Source: Acidobacteriota bacterium | Lineage (GTDB): Bacteria; Acidobacteriota; Terriglobia; Acidiferrales; UBA7541 | Direction of reading: 5' to 3' | Length of the DNA stretch: 64,000 nucleotides | NCBI GenBank assembly: GCA_003223245.1 | Contig: QHYI01000110.1 | Span: 66,352 to 130,351, forward strand | In this document: one piece after another, positions 12,869 to 23,057 of the stretch | Numbering within the stretch: position 1 is the stretch's first letter | Layout: each line of letters opens with the position of its first letter | The notes under the pieces: generated by a model | Told to the model about the DNA's origin: nothing | Databases searched by the model: none | What the model saw: the letters and a program-made list of their open reading frames with translations, nothing else | Position numbers and translations under genes: made by a program

Positions 12869-14158
12869 ATGGATCGAAAGCTGCGAAACCGGATTTTGCT
12901 CTACCTGTTCCTGGCAGGGGTGCTGGCGTACGTTCTCATCGAGTTGAGCGGGCGGAAGCCGGCGCCGAAAATTTCCGCGGTGACGCCGGTGCGGGAGAAC
13001 CTGATTTCGTCCATTAGCAGCAATGGAAAAGTCGAGCCCGTTTCTCCCTACGTCATGCGCGCGGAACTGGATACCTTCGTTGACAAGGTTTATGTCAGAG
13101 AAGGACAGCAGGTCAAAAAAGGCCAGTTGCTGATGGAATTGGATGTGAAGGACGCCGCGGCACAGCTTGCGGCAACGCGCGCAAAGCTCCTTGCAGCCCA
13201 GGATGATTTGCGGACTGCCATGGCTGGAGGGAAACCGGATGAAGCAGCGAAAGTCTTGGGTGACCTGGCAAAGGCGCAGGCCAAGCGCGACCAGCTACAG
13301 AAAGATCATGACGCGCTGATGCATTTGATCGCGCAGCAAGCGGCGACGCGCGAGGAATTGGCAGCCAACGACTTGTCTTTGACCGAGGCCCAAGCGGAAG
13401 TGACGCGACTCACCGCGGTGAAGCAGCAATTCGACCGCAGCGTAAAGCTGGCGGCCGACCAGGCGGCTTTGCAAGTCGATCAACTGAAAAACCAAATTGC
13501 GGCTCTAGAAGAGAAAGTGCGGCAAGCCAGAATCATCGCGCCCGCCGACGGAACCGTTTATTCGCTAGGCCGCAATGAAGGCTCGGAACCGCTCAAGCCC
13601 GGGGACTATGTGAAAGTGGGAGATTTGCTGGCAGAGATGGCGGACCTGCACAAGGTGCGCGTGCGGGCATTCATTGATGAGCCCGACCTGGGCGGGCTGG
13701 AAGTGAACGAACCAGTGAAAATCACCTGGGACGCCCTGCCGAACAAAAGCTGGTCCGGCAGAACGGAAACCCTTCCGAAACAGGTGGTGCAGCGAAATAC
13801 GCGAAGTGTGGGCGATGTTCTTTGCTCGGTGAACAATGACAACCTGGAGTTGTTGCCGAATACCAACGTAAACGTGCGCATCAATTCGCGAGAACACTTT
13901 GGCGTGTTGTCTGTGCCGCGCGGAGCGGTGGAAGTCGATGGCGGGCACCGTTATGTGTACGTGGTGAAGCCCAACCAGCTAGGCGTAGGCAAATCGACAC
14001 TGGAAAAACGGGAGATTCATGTGGGCATCGCCGACGCCACAAATTACGAGGTGGTGAGCGGGTTGCAAGAGGGTGAATTGGTGGCGTTGCCGGGCGACGT
14101 AGACTTGCACGACGGCATGAACGTAATCGTAGTAAATACATCGGCGGCGAATTCTTAA
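12869..14158 (+). CDS. Periplasmic adaptor protein of a tripartite efflux pump (MacA/HlyD-like)
   Basis: 429 residues. A short cytoplasmic N-terminus and one membrane anchor (about 8-26) lead to a split lipoyl/biotinyl-like domain (about 45-95 and 225-255, containing VYVREGQQVKKGQLLMELD), a long alpha-helical hairpin (about 95-225, rich in Ala, Lys, Gln and Glu) and beta-barrel plus membrane-proximal domains to the end. This is the MacA-type adaptor that bridges an inner-membrane transporter and a TolC channel. It is first in a four-gene plus-strand operon followed at 9, 60 and 56 bases by the TPR, permease and TolC genes. Substrates could be drugs, lipids or secreted peptides. Confidence 0.92.
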   Translation: MDRKLRNRILLYLFLAGVLAYVLIELSGRKPAPKISAVTPVRENLISSISSNGKVEPVSPYVMRAELDTFVDKVYVREGQQVKKGQLLMELDVKDAAAQLAATRAKLLAAQDDLRTAMAGGKPDEAAKVLGDLAKAQAKRDQLQKDHDALMHLIAQQAATREELAANDLSLTEAQAEVTRLTAVKQQFDRSVKLAADQAALQVDQLKNQIAALEEKVRQARIIAPADGTVYSLGRNEGSEPLKPGDYVKVGDLLAEMADLHKVRVRAFIDEPDLGGLEVNEPVKITWDALPNKSWSGRTETLPKQVVQRNTRSVGDVLCSVNNDNLELLPNTNVNVRINSREHFGVLSVPRGAVEVDGGHRYVYVVKPNQLGVGKSTLEKREIHVGIADATNYEVVSGLQEGELVALPGDVDLHDGMNVIVVNTSAANS

Positions 14159-14167
14159 TAGTAACGA

Positions 14168-15166
14168 ATGGCCTCCAGGAGCAAACTAGGCATTGCGGTG
14201 ACGCTCCTGGCGGGCGCTGCGGTAGCAGCTGCCCAGGCGACCGTCCGGCATGACGAAAGCCTGGAAGAAGCGCGGCGGGCTTACGAAGCCAGCAATTACG
14301 CGAAAGCTGTCCAGGTGCTCCAGGAGGCCGCGGCCAAACAGCCGAAAAACGGTGACATTCAATTGCTGCTGGCGAAAAATTACTTTGAGCTGCAAGAACA
14401 TGATGCGGCCATCCGCAGCGCAGAGAAGGCCGTAGCGCTGGATCCGCAGAATTCCGTTTTTCACGAATGGCTGGGCAGGGCATACGGAGACAAGGCGGAC
14501 CATACAGGGTGGTTTTCCGCGATGTCTCTTGCCAAAAAAGCGCGAAAGGAGTTCCAACAGGCGGTGGAGCTGGACGAGGGGAATTTCTCTGCCCGCCAGG
14601 CGCTGGTCGAATTTGATTGCAGCGCCCCGGGGATCGTAGGTGGAGGGGAAGAGAAAGCGCAGCCGCAAATCCAAAAAATGATGGAACTGGATGCCGCGGA
14701 AGGCCACTACGCCGCGGGGAACTGCCGCCGACAGAAAAAAAACTTCGTCGCCGCGGACGAAGAGTTCACAAAGTCGCTGGAAAGCCATCCGAAATCGGCC
14801 GAACTCATTTACGACATTGGCGATTATGCGATGAAGCGCGGTCAGCCGGAGCGGTTGTTCGCGGTGGCCGAAGCCGGAGAGCGCGTAGCGCCAAACGATC
14901 CACGGGGGAAGTTTTACCGGGGAGTGGGGCTGGTTCTAGAAAGGGAGAAACTCGAGGAAGCCAAGCGGTTGTTGCAGGAATATGCGACCAGGGCTCCGAA
15001 GAGAAACGGTTACCCTTCCCCAGCCTGGGTGCACGCCTGGCTGGGGCGGCTGTATGAAAGCAAGAACGAACCGGCAAATGCGAGAGAGGAATTTAAGAGC
15101 GCGCTCCAGCTGGACCCGAAAAACAAAATGGCGCAGGAAGAGTTGAAGAAACTGAAGAAGAACTAA
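14168..15166 (+). CDS. Exported TPR-repeat protein in the efflux operon
   Basis: 332 residues with a cleavable signal peptide (about 1-23, ending in AAAQA) and tetratricopeptide repeats along the rest: YAKAVQVLQEAAAKQPKN near 41-58, another pair about 65-130, and repeats about 190-330 closing with an ALQLDPKNK unit. TPR folds bind other proteins, so it is probably a periplasmic partner of the pump. It starts 9 bases after the adaptor stop, so the two are surely co-transcribed. A TPR protein is not a standard part of MacAB-TolC systems, although acidobacterial efflux operons sometimes carry one. Confidence 0.82.
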   Translation: MASRSKLGIAVTLLAGAAVAAAQATVRHDESLEEARRAYEASNYAKAVQVLQEAAAKQPKNGDIQLLLAKNYFELQEHDAAIRSAEKAVALDPQNSVFHEWLGRAYGDKADHTGWFSAMSLAKKARKEFQQAVELDEGNFSARQALVEFDCSAPGIVGGGEEKAQPQIQKMMELDAAEGHYAAGNCRRQKKNFVAADEEFTKSLESHPKSAELIYDIGDYAMKRGQPERLFAVAEAGERVAPNDPRGKFYRGVGLVLEREKLEEAKRLLQEYATRAPKRNGYPSPAWVHAWLGRLYESKNEPANAREEFKSALQLDPKNKMAQEELKKLKKN

Positions 15167-15226
15167 GCGTCTTCTCCCACCGCGCCCAGCCGGATTTCGA
15201 AGCGTTCTCGCTGCTACAGAAGACCA

Positions 15227-16429
15227 ATGCACATTCGAGAAATCATCTCGGTGGCCATCGACGCGCTGCGCGCGAACAAGTTGCGCGCGGGTCTGACGTC
15301 GCTCGGGGTGATTATTGGAAGCGCATCGATCGTGCTGGTCGTCACCGTGGCGCTGACCAGCCGCAAATATGTTCTGTCCCAAATCGAGGCTGTAGGTTCA
15401 AACATCATGTGGGTGGAGTTGGTCAGAAGCTCAGACAGAGCCGAGCCGCTGAGCTACGAGATTACCCTTGCGGACATGAACGCAGTAAAGTCCGATATCC
15501 GTGGAGTGGTGGAAACAGCGGGGATCCGAGAGTTGCCGATGGAAGTGGTAGTCGGTGGCGCTGCAGTACCGGTGAATCTGATTGGTGTGACGGAGGGTTA
15601 CCAAGCCATTCGTCGACTCGTCATCCTTCGCGGCCGGTACTTCGATTCGGTAGACATGGAAATGCGCAGTAAATTCTGTCTCATTTCCGAGCATCTGGCA
15701 CAGCGCGTGTATGGAGTGGAAAACCCGGTAGGCAGAGACCTTCGGCTGGGAGAATTGACGTTTACCGTGATCGGCGTCTTCCGAGAACGAGTATCAACCT
15801 TCGGGCAATCGGAAATTCACGATGATTCCGTAATCATTCCATTTACATTGATGAAGTATTACACGGGCACGGATGTGGTGCGGACACTATACGTGCAAAC
15901 GGTTACTCACGAAGATGTAGACCGGGTGCAGCGAGAGTTAGCGCAATTTCTGCATGCCCGTCATCCTGCCAACGCCGTGTATGACGTGCAGACATTGTCG
16001 GCGATCGTGGATGTCGCGAGAAAGATTTCACTGGCGCTAACCATTCTGCTGATCGTTATCGCCGCCATCGCCCTGCTCATTAGCGGCATCGGCATCATGA
16101 ACATCATGCTGGTGACGGTAACAGAGCGAACCCACGAGATCGGAATCCGCAAGGCGATTGGGGCGGCACGGCGGGAGATTTTGTACCAATTCTTGGTGGA
16201 ATCCTTCTTTATCAGTGGCGGGGGCGCGGTAATTGGAATTTTGGTGGGCATTGCTGTGCCCGTGGTAGTCCAATATTTTTGGCTGCCGCCGAATTTGCGC
16301 GTGCCGATCTCTAACCTGAGCGTTGTGATCGCCTTTGTGGTGTCCTGCTCAACGGGGCTGCTGTTTGGCTATTTGCCAGCAAGCCGGGCAGCAAACCTGC
16401 AGCCGGTGGAGTCTTTGCGGTATGAGTGA
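15227..16429 (+). CDS. MacB-type ABC transporter permease without ATPase domain
   Basis: 400 residues with the MacB/LolE layout: one N-terminal helix (about 18-42), a large periplasmic domain (about 45-265, MacB_PCD), and three helices at the C-terminus forming the FtsX domain (about 270-395, with [14 protein letters not shown] just after the second helix and [15 protein letters not shown] at the end). The E. coli MacB fuses an ATPase at the N-terminus; here that domain is absent and no ATPase gene lies in the operon. Such mechanotransmission permeases drive adaptor and TolC channel movements. Its ATPase must come from elsewhere. Confidence 0.92.
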
Positions 16430-16485
16430 CAGGGATTTGGGAACACCAGTTCGAGGCAAGTGAACTGCTACCAAGGAGCCTGAAC

Positions 16486-17826
16486 ATGCGATTCATTCGG
16501 GGTGTCGCGGGAGTCGCCGGATTGCTGTTGATCTGCGCTGGGGTGTTGGAAGGGCAAGAGGTGCAAGCGCCAAAGGCTGCGGAGCCGTCAGCCGAAGCTG
16601 CCGCACCAGTCGCGCTGACCTTGAAACGCACGGTTGAACTCGCGCTGCAGAACAGCAAGGAAATTCAAGTGGCGAAGATTCAGGCGAGCGTGGCAGATCA
16701 CGCTGCGCAAATCACCAAGGCGCAATTCATGCCCAATCTCTATGCCGGCTCCGGCGCGGGCTACACAAATGGCATACCGGAAACGCCGGGAGGCCGTGCG
16801 CCTGCGGTGTTCAATGTGACTTATACGGAGGAGGTTTTTAACGAACCGCTACGAGGACATGCGAAAGAGAGGCAAGAGCAAGCCAAGGCGCAGAAAATCG
16901 CGCTGGAGGAAGCCAGGAACAACGTCATTAGCCGGACGGCCATGGCATACCTGGAGCTCGCAAAAGTGCGGCATTCGCTCGAGCTGTTGCGGGCGGAACA
17001 GGAAAGCGCCGAAAAAATTCTCCAGGTGACCCAGGACCGGGAGAGCCAGGGATTCGAATTGCCCGTGGAAGTGACCAAGGCGCAACTGACCAAGGCTCGG
17101 GTGGTGCAGCGTAATCTGCAACTGGAAGAGCGCGAAGACGAACTGCAAGTTTTTCTCAGATACCAGCTGGGACTGCCGGAAACACAGGCGATCGAAGTCA
17201 CTCCGGAAGACTTGCCGGGAGCAGCCGAGCAGGCAGGCGACAACCTGATCGCCGCGGCGCTCGGGAACAATACGGAGTTGCGGCTCGCCGAATCCGACGT
17301 GCGCGCCAAAGAGTTCCGCCTGAAAGGGGAAAAGCGCGGGTATTTCCCGACGCTGGAACTGGTGAGCATTTACAGCGTGCTAGCAAGATTCAACAATTAC
17401 ACGGAGTTTTTCAATCATTTTCAGCGGAACAATTACAATGCCGGAATCAACGTGGAGATGCCGATTTTCAGCGCGCAATTGAAAGCCAATGTCGGTCTGG
17501 CGCAGGTGAATCTGGATGCCGCCAAGGCCTCCTTGGCCAGCAAGCGCAGCGAATTGAGCGCGGAGGTAAGGCAGAAAACGCGGCGCGTGCGAGAGATAGA
17601 TGCGGCAAAAGAAGTGGCCCGGCTGGAATTGCAACTCGCCCAGCAAAACGTCGCTGTGCTGCAAGCGCAGTTTGGCGAAGGGAAACTGAACCTGCGCGAC
17701 ATGGAAAAAGCGAGGTTGGACGAAAATGACAAATGGATGGCCTACCTGGACGCCAATTTTCAAAAGCAGCAGGCGCAGTTGGATTTGCTCAAAGCCGCTG
17801 GCCAGTTGGACAAAGTGTGGCAATGA
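16486..17826 (+). CDS. TolC-family outer-membrane channel protein
   Basis: 446 residues, counted from ATG 16486, which has AAGGAG 7 bases upstream and opens a signal peptide (MRFIRGVAGVAGLLLICAG, cleaved near LEGQE). A further-upstream ATG overlapping the permease stop is less likely. The body has the two internal repeats of TolC proteins: long coiled-coil helices rich in Ala, Glu, Lys and Gln (about 60-240 and 265-440) with the ITKAQFMPNLYAGSGAGY strand between. It would form the outer-membrane exit duct of the pump and closes the operon. Confidence 0.92.
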   Translation: MRFIRGVAGVAGLLLICAGVLEGQEVQAPKAAEPSAEAAAPVALTLKRTVELALQNSKEIQVAKIQASVADHAAQITKAQFMPNLYAGSGAGYTNGIPETPGGRAPAVFNVTYTEEVFNEPLRGHAKERQEQAKAQKIALEEARNNVISRTAMAYLELAKVRHSLELLRAEQESAEKILQVTQDRESQGFELPVEVTKAQLTKARVVQRNLQLEEREDELQVFLRYQLGLPETQAIEVTPEDLPGAAEQAGDNLIAAALGNNTELRLAESDVRAKEFRLKGEKRGYFPTLELVSIYSVLARFNNYTEFFNHFQRNNYNAGINVEMPIFSAQLKANVGLAQVNLDAAKASLASKRSELSAEVRQKTRRVREIDAAKEVARLELQLAQQNVAVLQAQFGEGKLNLRDMEKARLDENDKWMAYLDANFQKQQAQLDLLKAAGQLDKVWQ

Positions 17827-17889: not shown

Positions 17890-19275
17890 ATGCTCGACCA
17901 AAAGGAGTTTGCCGCGCTTCTGCAAGCCGCAAAGCGGCTGGAATGCGGCTTCGCCGGGCTGCCAAAACTCGACAGCGGTGAAGTTCCTGGAATGGAGCGA
18001 CTTGAAGAGGTCCTGAACGCGACGGCCGAACGCCTGAAAGACAACTACCCTTATTTTCATCCGCTGTATGCAGGGCAGATGCTGAAGCCTCCGCACCCCG
18101 TGGCGCGGCTGGCCTACGCGCTGGCCATGTGGCTCAATCCCAACAATCACGCGCTGGATGGCGGACGCGCCACCTCCGCGATGGAAAAAGAAGCCGTCGG
18201 GGAGATTGCCGGCATGTTCGGTTGGACAAGTTTTCTGGGGCACCTTTGCGGCAGTGGAACGATGGCGAACCTGGAGGCCTTGTGGGTTTCTGGACAACTC
18301 CATCCCGGAAAGAAAATTCTGGCGAGCGAACAGGCACATTATACGCACAGCAGAATCAGCGCGGTGCTGCAACTGCCCTTCGAACCGATTGCTACAGACA
18401 AGTTTGGGCGCATGGACACCGATGCGCTCGCGAAACGGCTGGAGCGCGGAGACCTAGGCACCGTTGTCGTAACCATGGGCACAACGGCGACTGGTTCCGT
18501 CGACCCGCTGCGTGAGATTCTGGAGTTGCGAGCCAAGCACGGATTTCGAATTCATGCGGATGCCGCGTACGGAGGATATTTCGTTCTGGCGGAGAATCTC
18601 GAGAGAGATGCGAGGCTGGCTTTAGAGCAAATCGGGAAAGTCGACTCCATCGTGATTGACCCGCATAAGCACGGCTTACAGCCATACGGCTGTGGATGCG
18701 TCTTGTTTCGCGACCCGGGTGTGGGGCGGCTGTACAAACACGACTCGCCGTATACGTACTTCAGCTCGAAGGAACTGCATTTGGGAGAGATCAGCTTGGA
18801 GTGTTCGAGGCCCGGTGCGTCGGCAGCAGCTCTTTGGGCGACGCAGAAGCTCCTGCCGCTTAGGAAGGGGGGAGAATTCGCACGCGGGCTGGAGCAGGGG
18901 AGGAAGGCCGCGCTGGCGCTTTTCGAGAAGCTGAGAGCGGATTCACGGTTTGTCACGGCGTTTCCGCCTGAGCTGGACATCCTGTTTTTTGCGCCGCGCG
19001 CTGATCGTGTCAGCGAGTCTTCGGCACTGAGCAGGAAGCTTTTTGAAGCCGCCGCTAAGCGCAATCTGCATCTTGCAGTGGCCGAATTGCCTATTCATTT
19101 CTGGGAGGAGAACCTTAGCGGGATGAAACGCGACCGCGACAAGATCACCTGCCTGCGTTCCGTGCTGATGAAGCCGGAACATCTGGAATACGTAGAACGC
19201 ATCTGGGAATTGCTTTCGATGGCCGCGCTAGAAGTCTTCCGGGGAACAGATGTAAAGACGAAAATAGAAAATTGA
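17890..19275 (+). CDS. Pyridoxal-phosphate-dependent amino-acid decarboxylase (group II type)
   Basis: 461 residues of the glutamate/aromatic-amino-acid decarboxylase fold. The PLP-binding Lys260 sits in IDPHKHGLQPYG; the cofactor-contacting Asp is in HADAAYGG; the GSGTMANLEAL segment carries the phosphate-binding loop. The C-terminal domain (about 370-450) looks intact. Substrate choice (glutamate, tyrosine, tryptophan, aspartate or another acid) cannot be read from these motifs. It lies 63 bases after tolC on the same strand, so read-through is possible, and about 250 bases before hpnJ. A link to hopanoid head-group chemistry is not supported by anything visible. Confidence 0.88.
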   Translation: MLDQKEFAALLQAAKRLECGFAGLPKLDSGEVPGMERLEEVLNATAERLKDNYPYFHPLYAGQMLKPPHPVARLAYALAMWLNPNNHALDGGRATSAMEKEAVGEIAGMFGWTSFLGHLCGSGTMANLEALWVSGQLHPGKKILASEQAHYTHSRISAVLQLPFEPIATDKFGRMDTDALAKRLERGDLGTVVVTMGTTATGSVDPLREILELRAKHGFRIHADAAYGGYFVLAENLERDARLALEQIGKVDSIVIDPHKHGLQPYGCGCVLFRDPGVGRLYKHDSPYTYFSSKELHLGEISLECSRPGASAAALWATQKLLPLRKGGEFARGLEQGRKAALALFEKLRADSRFVTAFPPELDILFFAPRADRVSESSALSRKLFEAAAKRNLHLAVAELPIHFWEENLSGMKRDRDKITCLRSVLMKPEHLEYVERIWELLSMAALEVFRGTDVKTKIEN

Positions 19276-19525: not shown

Positions 19526-21031
19526 ATGCCGGAAGTGATGAAAACCTTATTGCTGAACCCGCCAAGTTTCGAGAACTTTGACGGCGGTGCCAGTTCGCGG
19601 TGGCCCGCGACGCGCGAAATTGAGTCTTACTGGTATCCCGTTTGGCTGACCTACCCCGCCGGAATGATTCCTGGAAGCCGTTTGCTGGATGCCTCTCCTC
19701 ACAAAGTAAACTGGCGGCAGACGGTGGAAATTTGCAAGGACTATGAGTTCCTGGTCTTGTTCACCTCAACAGTGGGACTACAGAGCGATATCAAGCTCAT
19801 TCGCAAGATCAAAGAAACCAATCCGCACATGAAAATCGCCTTTGCGGGCCCGCACGGGCATATCAAGCCGGACGAAACGCTGCAAGCCAGCGAAGACATC
19901 GATTTTGTGACACGCGGAGAATTCGACTTCTCGGTGAGCGAGTACGCGCACGGGAAACCCCTCAGCGAAATCCAGGGCGTGAGCTACCGCAAAGACGGCA
20001 AGATTGTGCACAACCCCGAGCGGCCGCAGCTGCATACCGAGGAACTCGACTCATTGCCATTCGCCTCCGACATCTATAAGCGCGACCTGGAAATCGAGCG
20101 GTACAACGTGCCCTTCCTGTTGCATCCCTTCATTTCGTTCTATACGACACGCGGCTGTCCCGCGCTTTGCACCTTTTGCATGTGGCCGCAGACGATTTCC
20201 GGACACGCCTGGCGGACGCGCTCGACCGATAACGTGGCACGAGAAGTCAAACAGGCGCTCGGCTACTTCCCGCAAATGAAGGAAATTTTCTTTGACGATG
20301 ACACCTTCAACATCCGCAAGGACCGCGTGTTGGAGCTCTGCGCCAAGTTCAAACCGCTGAAGTTTCGATGGTCGTCCACGGCGCGTGTGCACAGCGATGA
20401 AGAAACCGTCAGAGCGATGGCCGAGTCCGGAGCGCGTTTGTTCATCGTGGGTTTCGAATCCGGTGACGCGCAAATCCTGAAAAACATCAAAAAAGGCGCG
20501 ACCCTCGAGATGGCGCGCAATTTCCGCAAGCATAGCCGCAAGTATGGAATCAAAGTGCATGGCGATTTCATCATTGGCTTGCCCGGCGAGACGAAGGAAA
20601 CTATCCAGAAGACGATTGACTTTGCCAAAGAGCTGGACTGCGAGACGATTCAGGTTTCATTGGCACATGCCATGCCCGGAACAGAGCTTCATGACTCCAT
20701 GGCGGCACAGGGATTCCTGAAGGTGGAGGCCCTGGCGGATTCCGGAGGGCACCAGCTTCCGCACATCGAGTACCCGCACCTTTCGAAGGCCGAAATGATG
20801 GCGGGAGTCAACCGCTTCTATGATGAATACTACTTCCGGCCGCGCGTGGTCTGGCGCATCGTGAAAGACGCTTTGTGGGATAGCCACGAGCGCAAGCGGC
20901 TCTACTCCGAAGCGACGGAGTTTTTGAAGCTGCGCGCCGAGCGCTTGAAATGGGCGCGCAAGGGCGGTGAAGAATATCATAAGCCCATGGTTTCCGTCCC
21001 CGGAACGAGTTCGCCTTCCGGAAACGATTAG
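19526..21031 (+). CDS. hpnJ: Hopanoid-associated radical SAM protein HpnJ
   Basis: 501 residues. An N-terminal B12-binding-like domain (about 5-170) precedes a radical SAM core whose iron-sulfur motif is C211-x3-C215-x2-C218 (RGCPALCTFC); the W-P-Q that follows is typical of HpnJ. The core also has EIFFDDDTFN and FIIGLPGET. HpnJ acts on bacteriohopanetetrol carrying a sugar and is known to be needed for the cyclitol-ether head group, using 5'-deoxyadenosyl radical chemistry. The gene starts the plus-strand unit hpnJ - two small membrane proteins - hpnI. GAGGGTG upstream supports the 19526 start; ATG 19538 is also possible. Confidence 0.88.
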   Translation: MPEVMKTLLLNPPSFENFDGGASSRWPATREIESYWYPVWLTYPAGMIPGSRLLDASPHKVNWRQTVEICKDYEFLVLFTSTVGLQSDIKLIRKIKETNPHMKIAFAGPHGHIKPDETLQASEDIDFVTRGEFDFSVSEYAHGKPLSEIQGVSYRKDGKIVHNPERPQLHTEELDSLPFASDIYKRDLEIERYNVPFLLHPFISFYTTRGCPALCTFCMWPQTISGHAWRTRSTDNVAREVKQALGYFPQMKEIFFDDDTFNIRKDRVLELCAKFKPLKFRWSSTARVHSDEETVRAMAESGARLFIVGFESGDAQILKNIKKGATLEMARNFRKHSRKYGIKVHGDFIIGLPGETKETIQKTIDFAKELDCETIQVSLAHAMPGTELHDSMAAQGFLKVEALADSGGHQLPHIEYPHLSKAEMMAGVNRFYDEYYFRPRVVWRIVKDALWDSHERKRLYSEATEFLKLRAERLKWARKGGEEYHKPMVSVPGTSSPSGND

Positions 21032-21043
21032 CTTCCCCCAAAA

Positions 21044-21472
21044 ATGGCAAGCGAAAAAAGGCTGCGAATCAAGACGCTGATCATGGTCTTGGCCATGGTC
21101 GTGTGCGCGAATGCAGGAGACTTGCTGTTGAAGTACGGTATGGCGCAGATCGGCGCGGTGGAGCTAACCCCGCATGGACTTTCGCAAGCTTTCTGGCAAA
21201 CCGTCAAGAGCCCGATCATCTGGCTGGCCATCCTTTTTCTCATCGGCTTCATGGTCAGTTACATGACGGTGCTGAGTTGGGCGGATTACAGTTACGTTAT
21301 GCCCGCAGGAGCGGCTGGATATGCGCTACTTACGTTTCTGGCGGTCATTTTGCTGCACGAGTCCGTCTCGCTGCGGCGCTGGGTCGGCGTCGTGCTGATT
21401 TGCTTGGGCGTCCTCCTGGTGGGGCAAACGAAACCGCGAACGACCGAGGTACCTAGCGAGGTGGCCGCGTGA
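21044..21472 (+). CDS. Small four-helix DMT/EamA-like membrane protein (ArnE/F-like half), first of pair
   Basis: 142 residues with four predicted membrane helices (about 9-29, 55-75, 80-100, 108-125) and short polar ends; the size and layout match SMR/EamA half-transporters, which work as dimers. The segment GDLLLKYGM in the first helix is the DMT-type start seen in ArnE/ArnF, the flippase for undecaprenyl-phosphate aminoarabinose. It begins 12 bases after hpnJ and its stop overlaps the next start (GTGA), so it pairs with that gene. By inference it is one half of a heterodimeric flippase for a hopanoid glycolipid; a general drug-exporter role is the alternative. Confidence 0.8.
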   Translation: MASEKRLRIKTLIMVLAMVVCANAGDLLLKYGMAQIGAVELTPHGLSQAFWQTVKSPIIWLAILFLIGFMVSYMTVLSWADYSYVMPAGAAGYALLTFLAVILLHESVSLRRWVGVVLICLGVLLVGQTKPRTTEVPSEVAA

Positions 21473-21840
21473 TTCGCCTCATCACTGGACTTGCGCTTTT
21501 GATTTTGGGCAGCACCTGCGGGGAAATCGCCATCACGCACGGGATGAAGTCGGTGGGCGAGCCGGCGCGGTTACGGCCAGGTGCGGTGATAAAGTTCCTG
21601 GGACGCGCCGTGCGCAACGGCTGGTTTTGGACTGGCGTTCCGCTGATGGCACTCTCTTTTTATGCCCTGCTTCTTTTGCTGTCCTGGGAGCCAATCAGTA
21701 TGGTGATCCCCGCATCCGCGCTGAGCTATGTCGCGGGGACGCTAGGGGCAAAATTCATCCTGGGCGAAGAGGTGAGTACGGCGAGGTGGGCTGGAGTGAT
21801 TCTCGTCTGCGTGGGCGTTGCGCTGGTTGCGGCAGGTTAA
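21469..21840 (+). CDS. Small four-helix DMT/EamA-like membrane protein, second of pair
   Basis: 123 residues, start GTG overlapping the stop of the previous gene by four bases, hence translational coupling. Four membrane helices (about 2-20, 48-70, 75-92, 101-121). GEIAITHGM near the first helix matches the ligand-facing helix of SMR-type proteins, with a membrane-embedded Glu at about residue 19. Two non-identical SMR-like subunits encoded together usually form an antiparallel heterodimer. hpnI follows 44 bases downstream. Confidence 0.8.
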   Translation: MIRLITGLALLILGSTCGEIAITHGMKSVGEPARLRPGAVIKFLGRAVRNGWFWTGVPLMALSFYALLLLLSWEPISMVIPASALSYVAGTLGAKFILGEEVSTARWAGVILVCVGVALVAAG

Positions 21841-21884
21841 GGAAATTCCGGGAAAATCTTGATGATGATGGCGGGCCAGCCTTC

Positions 21885-23057
21885 ATGATCTGGCACTATG
21901 CGTTCTGGCGCGATGCCGTGCTGCTGGTGGCCGCGGTGCCATTCGTTTATTACGCTCTGGCGATTTTTGCCGCCTTGCGCTTCTTCGGGCAGCGGGAACA
22001 AACACATGTGGAGTATTCGCCTCCCGCGAGCCTGCTCAAGCCCGTGCGTGGCGTGGACTTTGGTTCTAGCGAAAATCTCGCGAGTTTCTGTAAACAAGAT
22101 TATCCAGAGTACGAAATTCTATTCGCGGTGAATGACGAAAGCGACCCGGCCTTGCCATTGATCCGGCAGATCATGGCGGAATTTCCTCAACGCCGAATTC
22201 GACTGTTTACCAGCGCGAAAGAGCTGGGAGCCAATCGCAAGGTGAACAAACTAGCGATGCTGACCCGCGAGGCGCAGCATGACGTGCTCGTGCTGACGGA
22301 CGGAGATGTGCGAGTGGGGCCAAGTTATCTTCGCGAAGTGGTTGCGCCCTTGCGGGAAAAGAAAGTCGGCGCCGTGACGTGCTTCTACCGCGCGATCGCT
22401 CAAGACCACTTTGGCGCAAAGCTGGAGGCCGTGGGTGCGGCCAGCGATTTCTTCGCGGGCGTGCTGATGGCGCGCTGGAAGGAAGGAGTTCGCTTCGCGC
22501 TGGGCGCCTCCATTGCTACGACAAAACAGTGGGTCCGGAAGATGGGAGGCTTCGAGAGTCTGGTGGACACGCTGGGCGATGATTACGAGCTGGGCCTGGG
22601 AATCGCCAAAGCTGGCGGAGAAATCGTTCTGTCGCGCGAACCTGTCTGGACGACCTATCCGGCGCAACCCGTGCGCGGATTCTGGGAGCATCAGTTGCGT
22701 TGGGCGCGCACGGTGAAGTCCTGCAGGCCCCTTTCTTACATGGGGTTGCTCTTCACGCAAGGACTCCCTTGGACCGTGCTCGCCGCTCTGCTTGCTCCGC
22801 CAGCTTGGATCGGGGGCGCGTATTTGGCCGCCTACGTTGTTCTGCGGCTGGCCATGGCGTGGACGGTGGGTGTGTGGGGCGTCGGAGACGAAGTCCTGCG
22901 GCGGAATCTCTGGCTCGTGCCGGTTCGCGACGCCATTTACTTTGTTGTTTGGCTAGCGAGCTTTGCTTCAAACCGCATTCGCTGGGGCTCTGCGGAATTC
23001 GCGATTCAAAAAGGGCGAATGGTGCCGGTCGCCGCACGAGGGGACCGACAAAGATAA
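21885..23057 (+). CDS. hpnI: Hopanoid glycosyltransferase HpnI (ceramide-glucosyltransferase-like)
   Basis: 390 residues, taken from ATG 21885; the frame is open further upstream but that part is antisense-like sequence of the preceding genes. One N-terminal helix, then a GT-A domain with the processive-type motifs LTDGDVRVG (the DxD region), the catalytic DDYELG, and HQLRWARTVKS, the (Q/R)xxRW signature of the GT21 ceramide glucosyltransferase clan. C-terminal membrane helices (about 285-355) anchor it. HpnI adds N-acetylglucosamine to bacteriohopanetetrol. HpnK, the deacetylase normally acting next, is not in the window. Confidence 0.87.
   Translation: MIWHYAFWRDAVLLVAAVPFVYYALAIFAALRFFGQREQTHVEYSPPASLLKPVRGVDFGSSENLASFCKQDYPEYEILFAVNDESDPALPLIRQIMAEFPQRRIRLFTSAKELGANRKVNKLAMLTREAQHDVLVLTDGDVRVGPSYLREVVAPLREKKVGAVTCFYRAIAQDHFGAKLEAVGAASDFFAGVLMARWKEGVRFALGASIATTKQWVRKMGGFESLVDTLGDDYELGLGIAKAGGEIVLSREPVWTTYPAQPVRGFWEHQLRWARTVKSCRPLSYMGLLFTQGLPWTVLAALLAPPAWIGGAYLAAYVVLRLAMAWTVGVWGVGDEVLRRNLWLVPVRDAIYFVVWLASFASNRIRWGSAEFAIQKGRMVPVAARGDRQR

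Follow-up and report, generated by a model that had tools for sequence, protein, structure and literature searches.

Hopanoids are bacterial sterol-like lipids, and the enzymes HpnI, HpnK and HpnJ use cytosolic substrates. ArnE and ArnF constitute the undecaprenyl-phosphate-aminoarabinose flippase. According to a 2025 survey, HpnI adds N-acetylglucosamine, HpnK takes off the acetyl group and HpnJ forms the cyclitol ether; HpnN serves outer-membrane delivery, HpnM has a possible transport role and HpnL has no established function (PMC12583986). The window analysed here is a stretch of 64,000 nucleotides from an Acidobacteriota bacterium (GenBank assembly GCA_003223245.1, contig QHYI01000110.1, positions 66,352 to 130,351), in which two adjacent genes related to the small multidrug resistance (SMR) family, SMRA and SMRB, lie between hpnJ and hpnI. 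The exit of composite hopanoids from the cytoplasmic leaflet looks open, and the SMR pair is a small, concrete candidate with a clean genomic association: on balance it probably encodes an ArnEF-like heterodimeric flippase for hopanoids modified by HpnI, HpnK and HpnJ, in the place of HpnL.

The four genes are on the + strand in the order hpnJ-SMRA-SMRB-hpnI, with gaps of 12, −4 and 44 nt. hpnJ (19526..21031, 501 aa) matched TIGR03471 at 703 bits (cut-off 577.6) and hpnI (21885..23057, 390 aa), encoding a family 21/2 glycosyltransferase, matched TIGR03472 at 338 bits (cut-off 310), both neighbours thus being above their NCBIfam cut-offs. HpnJ is assigned as the B12-binding radical SAM protein of the bacteriohopanetetrol (BHT) cyclitol ether route. 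The ATG at 21885 was chosen as the start of hpnI, the open frame of which opens further upstream. SMRA (21044..21472, 142 aa) has an ATG start and SMRB (21469..21840, 123 aa) starts at the GTG inside the GTGA that ends SMRA, giving an overlap of 4 nt. A first-pass annotation of the window had described two co-directional SMR/ArnEF-like genes overlapping in GTGA between hpnJ and hpnI; the open reading frames, profiles and structural models bear this out.

The distribution of the pair was determined in 297 Acidobacteriota genomes searched for hpnI (the 60 best regions were read) and for hpnJ (20 further stretches). The hpnJ set comprised 47 genomes, 45 over the cut-off and two with partial genes below it (G208 and G103; G, C and L numbers denote genomes, contigs and loci); G030, with an hpnJ-like match of 347 bits, was excluded. 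Among hpnJ genomes 43 of 47 carried the pair, versus four of the 250 others (Fisher p = 2e-42, ignoring kinship); by family, it occurred in eight of the 12 hpnJ-bearing families. It lies within 2.5 kb of hpnJ on the same strand in 39 genomes (median gap 188). Squalene–hopene cyclase (SHC), called at E ≤ 1e-100, was found in 75 of the 297 genomes. The pair occurs in 42 of the 46 genomes with both SHC and hpnJ and in 0 of the 29 with SHC and no hpnJ; it therefore follows the HpnJ step, not hopanoid synthesis as such. The four genomes with the pair and without hpnJ gave no SHC match at this threshold either.

The same linkage was seen in a named collection, from which the best 80 of 552 HpnJ loci were sampled. 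Within 6 kb downstream of hpnJ, two SMR genes were present in 68 loci, three in one, one in two (one of which ends at the contig end) and none in nine (two with less than 300 bases of contig left). Among the 69 loci with at least two SMR genes, 30 have hpnI no more than 800 bases behind the pair and 15 have hpnE within 3 kb. Many named Acidobacteriaceae loci have the pair between hpnJ and hpnE-C-D, with hpnI elsewhere. The pair thus keeps its place beside hpnJ, and also beside hpnI in those clusters that contain hpnI. The proposal that it always accompanies hpnI was rejected, as genomes of the same class keep the pair with hpnJ and have hpnI homologues alone within 6 kb. Full hpnJ-hpnK-SMRA-SMRB-hpnI clusters were found in Acidobacteriota (L037 and L046–L049), L110 has the order hpnJ-hpnK-SMR-SMR, and in four of the 80 named loci hpnK separates hpnJ from the pair. 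The first-pass annotation had proposed glycosylated BHT as the cargo. The best correlate of the pair is HpnJ and not HpnI, so that a later HpnI/K/J product would be a more likely cargo than plain glycosylated BHT.

The first-pass annotation also stated that it knew of no such hopanoid flippase. A literature search that did not cover most subscription papers gave no recognised report of an SMR or EamA hopanoid flippase among the matches listed. The annotation had left out HpnL (TIGR03476, PF03706), the flippase-domain protein of proteobacterial hpnIJK clusters. HpnL resembles the pair in being a membrane protein within these clusters and in belonging to a flippase-domain family, but it is of an unrelated family, is about 340–350 aa long and occurs in Proteobacteria and at a few other loci. 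In three Burkholderiales loci, on plasmids or chromids, LPG_synthase_TM proteins are encoded beside hpn genes. These HpnLs scored 226–340 bits with TIGR03476 (cut-off 195.65), and two also matched TIGR00374 ('flippase-like'). The four HpnL proteins of the three loci were scanned with TIGR03476, all being over the cut-off; the remaining HpnL calls were made with a profile from those four (E ≤ 1e-4) or with a one-round extension.

HpnL or an HpnL-like protein was found in six of six plasmid/chromid loci and seven of 12 genome loci. Together these make up 13 of the 18 loci with hpnJ from Proteobacteria; no SMR gene was found in any of the 18. Six of 20 plasmid records were read for this count (three others were Lawsonia, at 31% identity). 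Of 28 proteobacterial hpnJ matches, 13 were over the cut-off and 12 were counted, the 13th (G297 C11) being a contig of L122; L230 and L231 (411 and 385 bits) and 13 further matches below the cut-off stood outside the count. L122 (G297), titled Gammaproteobacteria, has two hpnJ contigs, and one HpnJ is 74% identical to that of the window; the contig is perhaps a mis-binned acidobacterial one. None of the hpnJ loci examined has SMR and HpnL-like genes together. Four hpnJ-bearing Acidobacteriota lack the pair: G029 and G278 have an HpnL-like gene beside hpnJ (112 and 152 bits with TIGR03476, under the cut-off), G192 has a fragmentary HpnL match at a contig end (72 bits) and in G208 the contig that carries hpnJ is 3.3 kb long. 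The genome of the window gave no TIGR03476 match at E ≤ 1e-15. A strict exclusion of HpnL and the pair at the genome level fails, since some pair-bearing genomes have sub-cut-off matches to the HpnL family. The alternation of HpnL and SMR genes yields a prediction that can be checked from both sides. In kind, these data support a hopanoid-linked variant of lipid-SMR flippases that is linked to hpnJ more closely than to hpnI and alternates with HpnL.

The family of the two proteins was examined by profile comparison. The top NCBIfam match of SMRA was ArnF (27.0 bits, E = 4.9e-6, far under the cut-off of 99) and that of SMRB was ArnE (27.9 bits, E = 2.1e-6, far under the cut-off of 92); drug-type SMR models scored lower than ArnF for SMRA and did not appear for SMRB. 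PF00893 (SMR) had no match in the genome of the window at E ≤ 1 and was absent from the Pfam scan, and EamA (PF00892) stayed below its gathering score of 28.2 (SMRA 26.5, SMRB 20.9 bits). SMRA and SMRB are homologues (hhalign E = 2e-38), and their profiles aligned to E. coli ArnE with E = 3.5e-8 (SMRA) and 2.4e-7 (SMRB) and to EmrE with E = 4.5e-5 and 1.8e-3, respectively. A sequence search of the PDB with SMRB gave no match, and with SMRA the best matches were nucleotide-sugar transporters.

AlphaFold2 models built from alignments of relatives (mean pLDDT 88.9 for SMRA and 94.8 for SMRB) show four long helices, the first of which is followed by a short additional one; the third long helix of SMRB is broken. 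The best Foldseek matches of both subunits in the PDB were EmrE and Gdx-Clo (probability 1.00). The SMRB model, the only one realigned, superposed on 8vxu_B with Z = 11.8 and a root-mean-square deviation of 2.7 over 102 aligned residues, and its top seven rows were all SMR proteins (Z = 10.6–11.8), a range that helical models can reach by chance. By these models, SMRA and SMRB have the SMR fold. A proline in the third transmembrane helix (TM3), invariant in both subunits, aligns with a proline of ArnE. Three residues ahead of the conserved Gly of helix 1, at what we take to be the position of EmrE Glu14, Glu was found in 0 of 62 SMRA rows and 0 of 61 SMRB rows; Asp was found in two of the 61 SMRB rows. 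The residue immediately after this Gly is Asp in 44 and Asn in 17 of the 62 SMRA rows and Asp or Glu in 60 of the 61 SMRB rows. The helix-1 acidic residues of the window are D26 in SMRA and E19 in SMRB. Such a residue could bind the head-group amine or could equally serve proton coupling.

Charge bias was calculated simply by counting Lys and Arg on either side of the membrane. E. coli controls gave 0 for EmrE and Gdx, −6 for ArnE, +6 for ArnF, −4 for MdtI and +7 for MdtJ. The values in the window are +5 for SMRA and −5 for SMRB. In 90 pairs the mean bias was +3.0 for SMRA and −5.5 for SMRB, with SMRA above SMRB in 89 and the two on either side of zero (SMRA positive) in 78; the set includes two odd rows (SMRB misextended in L040 and at +9 in L186). 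SMRA is accordingly predicted to be N-in and SMRB N-out, and opposite biases of this kind are a trait of antiparallel heterodimers. Opposite biases are given for >95% of the adjacent SMR pairs in the set of an SMR review (PMC9574504).

A tree of 195 SMR rows placed every second-position subunit in one clade (100/99) and the first-position subunits outside it, so that the pair looks like one old duplication; ArnE was the nearest branch, and ArnF, on a very long branch, was placed with EmrE and MdtI. In a smaller tree that included single genes and paralogues, the proteins described here split from the six references (99/85), of which EmrE, Gdx, MdtI and MdtJ formed a group (96/94) that excluded ArnE and ArnF. 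With few alignment columns, the deep placement is uncertain. The tree, which separates the pair from EmrE (a check that had been proposed with the first-pass annotation), and the Glu14-like position were the grounds on which a drug-type SMR identity was rejected.

Among known systems the pair is close to ArnE/ArnF, which it resembles in being an adjacent pair of opposite bias (ArnF and SMRA positive, ArnE and SMRB negative), in its best NCBIfam matches, in the absence of Glu from the Glu14-like position (by eye for ArnE), in the TM3 proline of ArnE and in its place in a lipid-modification operon. It differs in scoring 27–28 bits against cut-offs of 92–99, so that neither equivalog is reached, in that the ArnF-like subunit is encoded first, in its hpnJ/K/I rather than arnBCADT context, and in the residue that follows the helix-1 Gly, which is acidic in the pair and Gln in ArnE (by eye). 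EmrE, Gdx and MdtIJ share the fold, and MdtIJ is likewise a charge-biased pair, but they occupy a separate branch and the pair lacks their Glu14-type residue. Their substrates are cations, and lipid SMRs are reported only as singletons within the GEBA genome set of the SMR review (PMC9574504); unlike those singletons, the present pair would add a lipid-SMR group that occurs as conserved pairs.

In the mechanism that we propose, SMRA and SMRB would pair as an antiparallel heterodimer of the SMR fold and act like ArnE/ArnF. The cargo would be glucosaminyl- or aminocyclitol-BHT, a hopanoid that owes its polar head to HpnI, HpnK and HpnJ, and the heterodimer would carry it across the inner membrane, from the cytoplasmic to the periplasmic leaflet. 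Since HpnI, HpnK and HpnJ act on cytosolic substrates, the modified hopanoid should start in the inner leaflet, and it must then cross before an outer-membrane transporter takes it. In Acidobacteriota the pair would fill the place taken by HpnL, an LPG_synthase_TM protein (the MprF flippase domain), in the hpnIJK clusters of Proteobacteria. Two lipid-SMR genes next to hpnJ, at a site that in another group is occupied by a protein resembling the MprF flippase, are best interpreted as encoding the flippase for this crossing. Heterodimer assembly, lipid flipping, the substrate, its direction and the performance of the same job by HpnL are what we infer. Of the flippase proposed in the first-pass annotation, the similarity to ArnE, the opposite biases, the SMR fold and the presence of hpnK in the cluster of several relatives speak in favour; by the NCBI cut-offs the proteins are not ArnE or ArnF, and paralogous pairs exist outside hopanoid contexts.

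Several observations weigh against this flippase. The Foldseek E value of both subunits was just about 0.04, and ArnF was not recovered when the subunit profiles were compared. TIGR03476 was over its cut-off in 0 of the 297 Acidobacteriota genomes, the acidobacterial HpnL-like genes all being below it, and sub-cut-off HpnL-family matches occur elsewhere in the pair-bearing genomes G265, G291, G307, G310 and G312. Neither SMR nor HpnL genes were found in the cyanobacterial loci L131 and L132, in five proteobacterial loci (two on short contigs) and in five others. In the genomes of the same class and in many named Acidobacteriaceae loci hpnI is outside the cluster, in which no hpnK was detected, and the HpnJ product there is therefore uncertain; one report likewise gives no hpnK in SD1 and SD3 (PMC5462960). 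Most single SMRs of the Nitrospirota group are biased negative, a poor fit to a simple homodimer. Pairs also occur in the four genomes without hpnJ and SHC, and others lie beside sulfoquinovose-type genes.

Among other functions, transport of a polyprenyl-phosphate-linked sugar, to be joined to a hopanoid or another lipid in the periplasm, is unlikely, even though ArnE and ArnF are the closest characterised relatives and an ArnT-like transferase lies within the paralogous cluster of G233. Listings of reading frames and surveys of tracked genes in hpnJ clusters showed no recognisable ArnT- or ArnC-like gene beside the pair, although no search aimed at such genes was made. That HpnI uses a nucleotide sugar directly also counts against such a carrier. 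So does the HpnI product, given in the 2025 survey as BHT N-acetylglucosamine (PMC12583986). Flipping of unmodified BHT, or of hopanoids generally, would suit the Acidobacteriaceae pairs placed between hpnJ and hpnE-C-D; we consider it quite improbable, as the pair is missing from all 29 genomes with SHC and no hpnJ.

The close tracking of hpnJ would also suit a membrane accessory that presents substrate to, or anchors, HpnJ or HpnI without transporting anything. The SMR fold and the opposite charge biases are transporter features, and HpnL, the replacement elsewhere, belongs to a flippase-domain family; such an accessory is very unlikely. Export of small cations, amino sugars or drugs, with the cluster position merely historical, seems the least probable of these functions: the fold is shared with EmrE and Gdx and helix 1 has a conserved acidic residue, but the pair lacks Glu at the Glu14-like position, stands apart from EmrE, Gdx and MdtIJ in the tree and is retained beside hpnJ over several families and gene orders.

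Groups outside the Acidobacteriota are labelled Pseudomonadota, Nitrospirota and Deltaproteobacteria/Myxococcota after the phyla of L122, L176 and L168, respectively; single SMR genes were found beside hpnJ in the latter two. Of the 20 hpnJ genomes of the Nitrospirota group, 13 new loci were read together with L176, a Nitrospirae record that has an SMR pair; in 12 of the 13 a single SMR gene lies in the hpnJ–hpnI neighbourhood (three on the other strand). In the Deltaproteobacteria/Myxococcota group hpnJ, hpnK and one SMR gene follow in order in three of seven new loci, and L168 has a pair. The 15 single SMRs of these two groups have biases of −8 to 0 and give no general support to the proposal that single SMRs are neutral dual-topology homodimers. 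Four hpnI-linked single SMRs are near neutral (−2, +1, 0 and −2, with the nearest start of each). Three SHC-bearing Acidobacteriota without hpnJ (L087, L088 and L090) have one SMR gene with a bias near zero beside hpnI-hpnK, followed in L087 by a DegT-type aminotransferase gene. By eye, the Nitrospirota-group single SMRs of L239, L240, L242–L248, L250 and L251 have Glu at the EmrE Glu14-like position, unlike the acidobacterial pair.

Second pairs were found in the genome of the window (C221, L204) and in G233 (C2, L205) and nest within the same subfamily in the smaller tree. Each pair is accompanied by a gene for an HpnI-like glycosyltransferase (cut-off 310; 286 bits in C221 and 299 in G233) and by one resembling UDP-sulfoquinovose synthase (cut-off 575; 487 and 508 bits, respectively). 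L205 also has an asparagine-synthase gene and the ArnT-like transferase gene (NF009784, 108 bits, cut-off 567), in a scan that covered the reading frames of G233. In view of the orphan and sulfoquinovose-linked paralogue pairs the SMR family is not hopanoid-only; the subfamily is better called glycolipid-linked, the hpnJ-linked members being its putative hopanoid branch.

HpnK is not encoded in the window, as the first-pass annotation had noted. A TIGR03473 search of the whole genome gave matches on contigs C182 and C163 and none on the contig of the window (C148), and none reached the cut-off of 232.6 bits. The best homologue (about 193 bits; C182, L001) adjoins an ArnC/DPM-like glycosyltransferase gene (by eye) and is more similar to the HpnK-like protein of the gp5 cluster L125, itself divergent (206 bits; 40% identity), than to the canonical HpnK of L046 (295 bits; 31% identity); the cluster HpnKs of L037, L046, L047, L156, L168 and L179 scored 278–306 bits. 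The divergent C182 homologue could be the missing deacetylase. The cyanobacterial loci L131 and L132 carry hpnJ-hpnK as well as another hpnK in the opposite orientation, together with hpnI, and their genomes gave no HpnL match at E ≤ 1e-15.

Upstream of hpnJ, Pfam matches on the + strand identify an HlyD-type adaptor, a TPR protein, a MacB-like (MacB_PCD/FtsX) permease and an OEP (TolC-type) efflux protein (12869..17826). Of the 80 named loci, 66 have more than 2.5 kb upstream, with TolC-type genes in 42, HlyD in 37 and MacB-type in 16. HpnN is described as a hopanoid transporter in the 2025 survey (PMC12583986); the candidate role of the pair is likewise hopanoid transport, but HpnN is an RND transporter to the outer membrane. 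HpnN was over its cut-off in 0 of the 13 genomes tested, with weaker matches in five, and for this reason the efflux genes may provide another route to the outer membrane. More tentatively, a dedicated export line is possible, though we would sooner doubt it, in which the SMR subfamily flips HpnJ-pathway hopanoids, displaces HpnL non-orthologously and hands its cargo to HlyD-TPR-MacB-TolC in replacement of HpnN, the SMR being a heterodimer in Acidobacteriota and a single gene in the sampled Nitrospirota and Deltaproteobacteria/Myxococcota groups; if true, it would also give HpnL a function.

Gene order downstream of the pair varies among named strains. In Granulicella aggregans (L171) the pair directly borders hpnE, and in strain KBS 83 (L181) two other genes separate them. 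We dropped an identification of the pair with the 'two additional genes' of KBS 83 mentioned in PMC5462960, which may be the two genes before hpnE in L181. Between the efflux genes and hpnJ in the window lies a pyridoxal-dependent decarboxylase-like gene (17890..19275, + strand; PF00282), and a decarboxylase-like gene is found at the same place in the relatives L114–L121.

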